Assembly: GCA_903921785.1 (NCBI GenBank)
Contig: CAIXRH010000129.1
Location: 1 to 43,732, forward strand
DNA from: an uncultured Pseudomonadota bacterium
GTDB lineage: Bacteria > Myxococcota_A > UBA796 > SXON01
Reading direction: 5' to 3'
DNA: 43,732 nucleotides
How positions within the stretch are numbered: the first letter of the stretch is position 1; each line of letters starts with the position of its first letter. Both the position numbers and the translations under genes were made by a program. Positions 18,929 to 21,593 of this stretch are shown here, in pieces. The notes beneath the pieces are model-generated. The model saw nothing but the letters and a program-made list of their open reading frames with translations, was not told the origin of the DNA and did not search any database.

Positions 18929-20278
18929 TCAGAGGATCGTCCCCCGAAGCACTGCGCTCGCGACGCTGAAGTAGATGATCAACCCCGTGACGTCCACCAA
19001 CGTGGCGACCATCGGTGCCGAGGCCGTGGCGGGGTCGAGCTTCAGGCGCCGGAGGAGGAACGGCAGCATGGCGCCGGAGATTGTGCCCCAGGCCACGACC
19101 CCCACGACGGAGATGCTCACCGCAGCGCCGATGAGCATGTAGTGCGGCCCATACAGGGAATCCCGGGTGGGCCAGAGCACGATGCGAAGGAAGCCGATGG
19201 AGGCGAGGACGCAGCCGAGCGCGAGCCCGCTGAGCACCTCGCGACGGAGCACCCGCATCGCGTCTTCCATGCGCACGTCGCCCACGCCGAGCGCGCGGAC
19301 GATGAGCGTGGTGGCCTGTGATCCGGCGTTTCCACCCGAGGAGATGATGAGCGGAATGAACAGGGCGAGCACCACTGCCTTCGCGATGGCGTCCTCGAAG
19401 TACGCCATGGCCGTGGCGGTGAGCATCTCGCCCACGAAGAGCACGGTGAGCCAGCCTGCGCGCTTCTTGAGCAGGTCGAAGAAGTCGACCTGGAGGTACG
19501 GCGCGTCGAGGGCCTCGGTACCGCCGAGCTTCTGGATGTCCTCGGTGGCCTCTTCGGTCATGACGTCGATCGCGTCGTCGACCGTGACGACGCCCTTCAT
19601 GCGCCCCTCGGCGTCCACCACGGGCAAGGCGAGGAAGTCGTAGCGGGCCATCATCCGCGCCACCTCCTCCTGATCCGCGTCTTCCCGTACGGAGAGCACC
19701 TCGCGCGTCATGATCTCGCTCACCTTCGCGCGGCCGGCCGCCCGGATGAGCTCGCGCATGGTGACCACCCCGACGAGCCGGTGATCCGCGCTGAGCACGT
19801 AGGTGTAGTAGGTGGGATCTTCGCGGGCGGCATACTGGCGGCGGAGGTAGGCGATCGCCTCATCGACCGTGAACTCTGGGCGGAGCACGGCATAGCGGGG
19901 ATCCATGAGGCCGCCGGCCTCGTCTTCGCGGTAGGCGAGGAGCGCCTGCACCTGGGCGCGGGTGGGGGCGTCCAGCGCGTCGAGGAGCACGGCGGCGTCG
20001 GCTTCCAGGGACTGGGCCACGTCCACCGCGTCGTCGGGTGCGAGCAAGCGGGCCCAAAGACGGCGGGCACCGACGGCGAGGCCGGAGAGGAAGCTCCCCT
20101 GATCGGCCGCGGACAAAGCCAGGAACAGGTCGGTGGCCTCTTCGTCGTCGAGGGCGGCGAAGGTGGCGGCGCGCTCGGGCGCGTCCATGGACGGCCAGGC
20201 GTCCAGCAGCTCGCCGAGCGTGGGGTTCGGGGTGGCGGCGGTGGTCATGGCCGCTCCAACTTCAGGAACATGGTTCAC
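18929..20278 (-). CDS. mgtE: Magnesium transporter MgtE
   Basis: A 449-residue Mg2+ channel of the MgtE family. The cytoplasmic N domain (about 25-135) includes EDEAGGLMDPRYAVLRPE, and two CBS domains follow (about 137-262: YVLSADHRLVGVVTMRELI and MTREVLSVRED, DFLALPVVDAEGRMKGVVT). The C-terminal pore has about five helices with the family motifs IISSGGNAGSQATTLIVRAL and DPATASAPMVATLVDVTGL. The Mg2+-binding N and CBS domains gate the pore. The ATG at 20278 has a strong GGAGGAG 6 nt upstream; an ATG at 20248 with GGAG is an alternative. That GGAGGAG is paired within a hairpin, suggesting translational control. Divergent from ychF. Confidence 0.95.
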   Translation of the reverse strand: MNHVPEVGAAMTTAATPNPTLGELLDAWPSMDAPERAATFAALDDEEATDLFLALSAADQGSFLSGLAVGARRLWARLLAPDDAVDVAQSLEADAAVLLDALDAPTRAQVQALLAYREDEAGGLMDPRYAVLRPEFTVDEAIAYLRRQYAAREDPTYYTYVLSADHRLVGVVTMRELIRAAGRAKVSEIMTREVLSVREDADQEEVARMMARYDFLALPVVDAEGRMKGVVTVDDAIDVMTEEATEDIQKLGGTEALDAPYLQVDFFDLLKKRAGWLTVLFVGEMLTATAMAYFEDAIAKAVVLALFIPLIISSGGNAGSQATTLIVRALGVGDVRMEDAMRVLRREVLSGLALGCVLASIGFLRIVLWPTRDSLYGPHYMLIGAAVSISVVGVVAWGTISGAMLPFLLRRLKLDPATASAPMVATLVDVTGLIIYFSVASAVLRGTIL

Positions 20279-20301
20279 TCCTCCCGCGTGAGCGGAGGGA
20301 G
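20278..20301 (-). promoter_or_regulatory. Hairpin covering the mgtE ribosome binding site
   Basis: In the mgtE message, CTCCCTCCGC pairs with GCGGGAGGAG around a TCAC loop: eight Watson-Crick pairs, one G-U and one C-A mismatch. The 3' arm contains the whole Shine-Dalgarno sequence GGAGGAG, and the paired region ends next to the start codon. A stem this strong should block initiation unless opened. It does not match the M-box magnesium riboswitch as far as I can see. Confidence 0.5.
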
Positions 20302-20498
20302 ACCCTCAGATCACGCGGAGAACGTCGCGGATGGGCAGGGTTCGGAACTCAGGCGGGGACCCGGGGAACGAGAACGTTGGCCAGCTCCTGCTGGCGGGGG
20401 GCATCTATCACGCACCCTCGCGGAGGGGAAGCACGTCGCGCGATCGTCTGCGCATCGGTCGTCCGACCTTGTTAGCCGGCGGGCCTCCCGAGGACTCC

Positions 20499-21593
20499 AT
20501 GGCGCTCCAGGCAGGCATCGTCGGCCTCCCCAACGTCGGCAAGAGCACGCTGTTCAACGCCCTGACCGCCGCCGGCGCCGCCGCGGCGAACTTCCCGTTC
20601 TGCACGATCGACCCCAACGTGGGCGTCGTGCCGGTGCCGGACGGGCGCATGGAGCAGCTCCACGCCATCATCAAGACCAACGTGATCATCCCGGCCGCGG
20701 TCGAGGTGGTGGACATCGCGGGGCTCGTGCGCGGCGCCAGCACCGGCGCCGGCCTCGGCAACAAGTTCCTCGGTCACATCCGCAGTGTGGACGCCGTGCT
20801 TCACGTCGTCCGCTGCTTCGACGACGGCGACGTGGTGCATGTGGACGGCCACCCCGACCCGCTGCGCGACATCGACACGATCGACACCGAGCTCGCCCTC
20901 GCCGACCTCGAGAGCATCACCCGCCGGGTCGACCGCTTCCGCAAGCAGAGCAAGGGTGGCGACAAGGAGTCGCTGTTCCAGCTCGGCGTGGCCGAGCGCC
21001 TGGAGAAGCTGGTGAACGAGGGCAAGCCCGCCCGCCACGGCACCTGGACGGCGGACGAGTGGGTCAGCGTGAAGGACGCGCAGCTCATCACCGCCAAGCC
21101 GGTCCTCTACGTCTGCAACGTCGATGAAGCCGGCCTCTCCGGCGACAACGCCTACGTGAAGTCCGTGCGTGCACGCGCGGCCACGGAGGGCGCCCAGGTC
21201 GTGGTGCTCTGCGCCAAGATCGAGGCCGAAATCCAGGAGCTCCCCGCCGAGGACCGCCCGGCGTTCCTCGCGGACATGGGGCTGCCCGAGCCCGGTCTCG
21301 CCAAGCTCGCCCGCGGCGTGTACGCGCTGCTCGGGCTGCAGACCTACTTCACCGCCGGCGTGAAGGAGATCCGCGCCTGGACGATCCCCGTGGGCGCCAA
21401 GGCGCCGCAGGCCGCCGGTGTCATCCACACCGACTTCGAGAAGGGCTTCATCCGCGCCGAGGTCTACACGGTGCCGGACCTGGTGGCCGCGGGGTCGGAG
21501 GCGGCGCTCAAGGCCGCCGGGAAGATGCGGGTGGAGGGGAAGGAGTACGTGGTGCAGGATGGGGATGTGATGCACTTTCGGTTCAACGTCTGA
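20499..21593 (+). CDS. ychF: Redox-regulated ATPase YchF (OLA1 family)
   Basis: A 364-residue cytoplasmic P-loop protein of the Obg-like YchF family. It has G1 GLPNVGKS (residues 9-16), the switch region [12 protein letters not shown]3 [10 protein letters not shown], and the altered G4 motif NVDE (207-210) that gives this family ATP rather than GTP preference. The coiled-coil arm (around [14 protein letters not shown]) and the C-terminal TGS domain ([32 protein letters not shown]) are complete. GAGGA lies 4 nt before the ATG. Relatives bind ribosomes and modulate stress responses. It is divergent from mgtE, and a cluster of large hairpins begins at its stop codon. Confidence 0.95.

Follow-up and report, generated by a model that had tools for sequence, protein, structure and literature searches.

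A predicted hairpin over the ribosome binding site of a short leader ORF that overlaps the mgtE start in an uncultured Myxococcota_A bacterium

Upstream of the Mg2+ channel gene mgtE in an uncultured bacterium of the GTDB phylum Myxococcota_A, a strong SD sequence is located within a predicted hairpin, which raises the question of which start codon this SD serves and whether its pairing controls the synthesis of the channel. The DNA analyzed here is a stretch of 43,732 nucleotides (contig CAIXRH010000129.1 of assembly GCA_903921785.1) and is referred to as the window. A first-pass annotation had assigned the SD to mgtE and regarded its pairing as a block of translation that would have to be melted by an ion, a protein, temperature, or upstream RNA pairing. 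The reading preferred here, with a probability of roughly 0.58, is that the hairpin gates the SD of a short leader ORF, which would pass its ribosomes on to mgtE via the coupled stop and start codons. The arrangement of hairpin and leader ORF probably controls the amount of channel made.

The start codon of mgtE and the leader ORF

The gene mgtE (18929..20248, minus strand) encodes an MgtE-type Mg2+ channel of 439 aa, which contains the domains MgtE_N, CBS, and MgtE (Pfam PF01769/PF00571/PF03448) and passes the NCBI MgtE equivalog TIGR00400 with 345.9 bits. The ATG at 20248 is taken as its start because the aligned codon forms the N-terminus in the related genomes G011 and G020. The sequence also contains a GTG in frame with mgtE (20276..20278, minus strand), which would permit an extension of 10 residues; located 1 nt from GGAGG, this GTG is considered an unlikely start. 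Four of the ten codons of the possible extension end in G or C according to a hand count.

Directly upstream of mgtE, the sequence contains an ORF of 8 codons (20245..20271, minus strand), which reads ATG TTC CTG AAG TTG GAG CGG CCA TGA, would encode the peptide MFLKLERP, and uses a different reading frame from mgtE. The TGA of this ORF (20247-20245) and the mgtE ATG at 20248 share nucleotides in an ATGA junction (20248-20245), and the ORF has an initiation signal of its own, the SD GGGAGGAG (20278..20285, minus strand), in which GGAGG (20284-20280) precedes the ATG at 20271 by 8 nt. The SD covered by the hairpin is thus not the one of mgtE, since the adjacent ATG at 20271 opens the out-of-frame leader ORF and the relatives support 20248 as the mgtE start. 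An assembly frameshift behind this layout is unlikely because G011 and G020 share the out-of-frame arrangement.

A weak SD belonging to mgtE itself, GGAG (20254..20257, minus strand), is present in the window genome inside the leader ORF, 5 nt upstream of the mgtE ATG. This GGAG is in keeping with the main rival explanation, chance burial of the SD. According to this explanation, the hairpin results from the GC-rich surroundings of a purine-rich SD, translation of mgtE simply begins at 20248 via its own GGAG, and neither the hairpin nor the short ORF has a role. Initiation at 20248 independent of the stem had also been named in the first-pass annotation as a finding that would speak against its proposal. 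The start codon and the GGAG of the window agree with such initiation, but no SD of at least 4 nt was found for mgtE itself in the three related genomes G011, G020, and G021.

In all three of these relatives, as in the window, a short out-of-frame ORF that is preceded by an SD ends with a stop overlapping the mgtE start, in ATGA, GTGA, or TTGA junctions. The peptides of G011, G020, and G021 would be MNMTQREFSRTRWLP, MNANPSTIAPDLRASARP, and VNTRNQTRSPHARMGLGGCA, respectively, each followed by the stop; the last of these leaders begins with GTG, 10 nt from GAGG. With lengths of 8, 15, 18, and 20 codons, the four leaders maintain the stop-start overlap, and their peptides are not conserved. In each of the four leaders, the leader frame receives the highest codon score of the three frames, albeit weakly (+0.5 in the window and negative in the others). 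A well-formed sigma-70-like promoter, TTGACG-17-TAATTN, is found by eye upstream of mgtE in the loci L003, L004, and L006 and is common to G011, G020, and G021.

The MgtE type of the window is encoded at E 1e-100 or better in 7 of 71 genomes of the class, including the window's own, and appears to be patchily distributed in its genus; G018 contains only an MgtE fragment without a start. Nine of ten genomes of the same genus have only MgtE copies with 39% identity or less, and G002 shows none. The window genome itself encodes a second MgtE (L002, G000:C84:45785-46942), which is 35% identical to the first. In a tree of 118 proteins calculated with a quick method, the protein of the window groups with those of G011, G020, and G021 (SH-aLRT 87), while those of G036, G052, and G027 belong to another group. 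Same-phylum entries of this tree that are identical to named Myxococcota loci would place the phylum as Myxococcota. In G052 and G027, the "leader" consists of a bare ATG-TGA, and an overlapping GTG, preceded by AGGAGG at a distance of 6 nt, can itself serve as the mgtE start; in G036, no leader ORF was found before mgtE. Altogether, an overlap ORF of any such kind precedes mgtE in 12 of 142 distinct loci, comprising six class relatives (window included) and 6 of 136 others. None of these latter six is from the class, and no conservation is seen across the mgtE genes of other groups.

The background frequency of such ORFs was determined with gene calls from a simple in-house codon and SD model, covering 685,114 bases of the window genome (G000; 561 genes), 200 kb of G011 (197 genes), and 80 kb of G020 (65 genes). 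The rule required an ATG start, at most 20 codons, an SD of at least 4 nt, and an xTGA junction, with the 20-codon limit chosen after the relatives were known. Among non-operon genes, the rule fits 2/285 in G000, 1/98 in G011, and 1/36 in G020, which amounts to 4/419; mgtE accounts for three of these four, once in each genome. Of the genes that have another gene close upstream, 0/254, 1/89, and 0/27 fit the rule, respectively. With a limit of 30 codons, the non-operon counts are 5/285, 1/98, and 1/36; with an SD of at least 5 nt and 20 codons, they are 2/285, 1/98, and 0/36, so that G020 drops out.

Since the ORF was first noticed in the window, G011 and G020 serve as the test; they share ancestry, and their counts are therefore not independent. 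Taken as one event, their agreement corresponds to about 1 in 400 when at most 20 codons are allowed (1/416 other genes) and to about 1 in 100 when the limit is 30 codons (4/416). That, of the non-operon genes in the three genomes, hardly any but mgtE have the overlap ORF argues against a chance arrangement. Four other non-operon genes of the window genome (L175, L166, L177, and L194) are preceded by an SD-led ATG ORF of 17-28 codons with a stop overlapping the gene start.

The SD hairpin in the window and in related genomes

The hairpin over GGAGGAG described in the first-pass annotation is present in the sequence as CTCCCTCCGC-TCAC-GCGGGAGGAG (20278..20301, minus strand, read from 20301 to 20278). 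This compact stem contains one C.A mismatch, one U.G pair, and a 4-nt loop, and reaches -13.0 kcal/mol when folded alone. A rival longer stem, UUCUCCGCGUGA ... UCACGCGGGAGGA with the inner hairpin GAGGG-UCU-CCCUC (20279..20322, minus strand), also covers the SD and is predicted at -26.0 kcal/mol including the inner hairpin. In MFE predictions, about 20 nt of additional leader suffice for the stem 20322-20279 to displace the compact one. For the seven tested transcripts that begin between 20499 and 20314, the mean pair probability of the compact stem is 0.00-0.03, with 0.00-0.02 for the six of them that begin between 20499 and 20318; for the three that begin between 20310 and 20301, it is 0.50-0.93. 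The outer dyad of the rival stem has mean pair probabilities of 0.36-0.98 in the six tested transcripts containing it. As the fold of the leader, the originally named stem thus holds for 5' ends from 20310 to 20301 and gives way to its longer rival in longer leaders.

By these fold models, the predicted hairpin, be it the compact stem or the longer rival, contains the SD in its 3' arm. In the tested transcripts that begin at 20325 or upstream of it, the GGAGG bases have pair probabilities of 0.57-0.99; in those that begin at 20318 and 20314, two or three of these bases are mostly open (0.02-0.31). A scan between 20100 and 20650 found no sigma-70-like promoter and no terminator-like site.

The competing folds (20301-20278 and 20322-20279) share the segments CCCUC and GCGGGAG, which could suggest a regulated switch, in which two mutually exclusive stems, or a change of ligand, ion, or temperature, toggle access to the SD as in translational riboswitches or thermometers. 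Alternative stems together with a short ORF have a precedent at a Mg2+ transporter gene, as described for Salmonella (PMC8092293). However, the SD is mostly paired in both predicted folds, and its predicted pairing changes little with temperature, from 0.74-0.93 at 25 C to 0.59-0.91 at 45 C in the -60..+40 fold, a computed result with no clear melting. No Rfam family reaches its gathering score in the window, and the M-box (RF00380) is absent from the window and from all 22 family genomes searched (0/22), with 2 of 14 control genomes positive, in line with the earlier remark that no known M-box is recognizable. An NLPC-P60 match on the plus strand (21.4 bits compared to a gathering score of 53.7) is taken as chance. 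Nothing examined points to Mg2+, temperature, or a ligand, and a switch of this kind is regarded as improbable.

The extent to which the SD is buried is ordinary. Opening the leader SD costs 5.9 kcal/mol, and of 233 SD-bearing genes, 24.5% require at least this much; burial of such degree is common in the GC-rich genome of the window, which is in favor of the chance explanation. Stable 45-nt structures reaching -26.0 are likewise not rare near starts, as they occur close to the start of 18/538 genes and within the wider leader of 86/538. Under the rule used for comparison, the compact SD-covering hairpin of the window has a value of -14.8, and hairpins of the same strength are found in 9/302 SD control genes and in 6/98 with a strong SD. 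These 302 control genes were drawn from the window genome, G011, and G020, and none from G052. Compared to composition-matched shuffles of the upstream 30 nt, the window hairpin is not unusual alone (p = 0.18), which also fits the chance explanation. The hairpin of this single sequence thus does not carry the case.

In the relatives, compact hairpins on the leader SD reach -15.8 in G011 and -15.4 in G020 (each equalled in strength by 8/302 control genes) and -17.7 in G052 (4/302, with controls from other genomes, namely G000, G011, and G020). The SD hairpin of G021 is weak (-4.8, with 128/302 control genes as strong), and a start-codon hairpin guessed for this genome does not form in the full leader. 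Compact SD hairpins are therefore predicted in four of five lineages, and in each of the four, no more than 3% of the 302 control genes have a hairpin as strong. The corresponding shuffle p values are 0.09 for G011, 0.04 for G020, and 0.04 for G052, and the value is 0.08 for G021 even though its hairpin is weak. When folded from the start predicted by the TTGACG-17-TAATTN promoter, the stems of G011 and G020 have pair probabilities of 0.71-0.99; the stem of G052 reaches 0.90-0.98 at three leader lengths, except for its C.A mismatch.

The SD hairpin recurs in G011, G020, and G052/G027 despite changed sequence, and translational control at the mgtE leader, as had been proposed, is plausible. Absence of pairing in relatives, which the first-pass annotation had named as an argument against its hairpin, applies to G021 and not to the three other lineages. 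With regard to compensatory change, a plain alignment of G011 and G020 shows five of the seven outer pairs of G020 unchanged, one with a one-sided change (C-G/U.G), and one that meets a gap; the three inner pairs of G011 are not kept in G020 and match only after structural re-alignment. That compact hairpins of such strength cover the SD in most of the lineages, four out of five, speaks against chance burial. With its evidence on both sides taken together, this explanation is unlikely but the most serious competitor of the preferred reading.

Across mgtE loci in general, a shuffle p of 0.1 or less is found in 7/27 loci with a strong SD, compared to 7/51 neighbor genes (Fisher 0.15) and 5/98 genome controls (Fisher 0.004). 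At shuffle cuts of 0.05 and 0.2, the Fisher values against the neighbors are 0.046 and 0.042, respectively. When all SD strengths are included, nothing reaches 0.05, and the proportions at the 0.1 cut are 8/60 for mgtE, 13/119 for neighbors, and 20/302 for control genes. The loci L001 and L008 were excluded from the comparison between mgtE and neighbor genes, and no claim is based on this count. Strong SD-covering hairpins are also located before the distant mgtE genes L047, L131, L143, and L045, with an enrichment over neighbor genes that is not firm. The hairpin of L047 is CUCUCCCUCCGC-GUA-GCGGAGGAGG, and its start candidate precedes the position expected for the mgtE start by 25 codons.

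Proposed route of translation and known systems

Short ORFs that stop on the start codon of the next gene have been recognized as ribosome-delivery devices in a small number of thoroughly studied cases. The anatomy of the mgtE leader and its recurrence in relatives can be read directly from the DNA, and the following route, including translation of the leader ORF, reinitiation, and a role of the hairpin as a brake, is proposed on this basis. Ribosomes would enter mainly at the leader ORF once the hairpin opens. Termination at the leader UGA would then be followed by re-initiation at the overlapping mgtE AUG, so that the hairpin would set the output of mgtE indirectly, via the leader ORF. In G011, G020, and G021, termination-reinitiation would be the main route because their mgtE genes have no SD. 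In the window genome, independent initiation at the weak GGAG could add to the coupled route. Since the leader peptide is not conserved, the act of translation rather than its product should matter.

The simplest view of the hairpin is that of a fixed brake keeping the channel low, with a regulated switch as a possible alternative. A further and rather doubtful idea is that the ribosome itself acts as the Mg2+ sensor. Entry at the hairpin-covered leader SD, or reinitiation after so short an ORF, would vary as Mg2+ alters the state of the ribosome and the fold of the leader, and the gate would require neither a protein nor an aptamer. If this were true, the channel would be made at low Mg2+ in a lineage in which no M-box was found.

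Individual elements of this route have been described for other leaders. Neighboring genes frequently overlap at their stop and start codons, and such an overlap can couple their translation (PMC6728339), and ribosome delivery by a short upstream ORF has been discussed (PMC12548453). In the iraD leader of E. coli, the stop of a short leader ORF overlaps the start of the main gene, and control at the leader SD reaches this gene by translational coupling (PMC5574718). The window leader has the same overlap and the same placement of control, but in iraD the leader SD is bound by CsrA according to the account in this source, whereas in the window it is covered by RNA pairing and the gene is a different one (PMC5574718). 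No CsrA match was found in the window's genome, which is 96% complete, with 3 of 14 control genomes positive.

A close counterpart is the B12 riboswitch of ppe2 in M. tuberculosis, where the out-of-frame uORF uPPE2 overlaps the main ORF in an AUGA and the main ORF has no SD (PMC11260477). The SD of this uORF is masked by an anti-initiation stem, and the main ORF is made mainly by termination-reinitiation (PMC11260477). The out-of-frame, AUGA-overlapping uORF with a stem-masked SD is shared with the mgtE leader, which differs from the B12 aptamer system as described there (PMC11260477) in that no Rfam match at gathering score was obtained and that mgtE of the window has a weak SD.

Among leaders of Mg2+ transporter genes, mgtQ-mgtB of Salmonella combines an 8-codon ORF with alternative stems that control translation of the transporter (PMC8092293). 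The mgtE leader of the window resembles it in both respects. According to the account given there (PMC8092293), mgtQ is an intra-operon ORF situated in a gap of 219 nt, and its acidic codons are important; the ORF of the window, in contrast, overlaps the main start, and its peptide is not conserved. The M-box (RF00380) is likewise an RNA leader before Mg2+ transporter genes, and the translational M-box described for M. tuberculosis shows SD masking together with a small ORF (PMC12810186), as does the leader studied here, although neither the window nor the 22 family genomes contain an M-box. The mgtE motif of Thioalkalivibrio, a riboswitch candidate reported only from this genus, similarly places the SD and the AUG of an mgtE-labelled gene within a stem, but no short ORF is mentioned in the available part of the source (PMC11109978).

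The titles and abstract openings of the listed open-licence papers yielded no case of mgtE controlled by a layout of this kind. In two genera of a single family, the overlap ORF seems to be associated with mgtE and to be accompanied by an SD hairpin, and no M-box was found in this family. If confirmed, this would represent a compact means of limiting a Mg2+ channel at the level of translation.

The divergent ychF side

The divergent neighbor of mgtE is ychF (20499..21593, plus strand; TIGR00092). The intergenic region between both genes contains an inverted repeat with perfect 8-nt arms, CCGCGTGA-N19-TCACGCGG, which could be read as a DNA-level operator or as part of the divergent ychF promoter. 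Several observations make this reading highly improbable. By eye, no counterpart of the hairpin was recognized upstream of ychF in 16 family loci, so that the ychF leader was also rejected as owner of the hairpin. Compared with 67 class genomes, the intergenic DNA gives only short matches outside its own place, and the three same-genus matches beside ychF span only about 50 nt next to this gene. Furthermore, the SD hairpin recurs in relatives with other neighbors, which points to RNA; ychF and mgtE are located on separate contigs in G011, G020, and G021.

Other stable stems are located upstream of ychF in some family loci, such as L231 (-30.1) and L229 (-26.9). In the window, the ychF ATG is closely preceded by an element resembling GTTAGCC and by a short run rich in purines (20455-20499), and inspection by eye shows both at many of the 16 ychF loci of the family (L221-L236). 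They may represent the promoter and the SD of a very short ychF leader.
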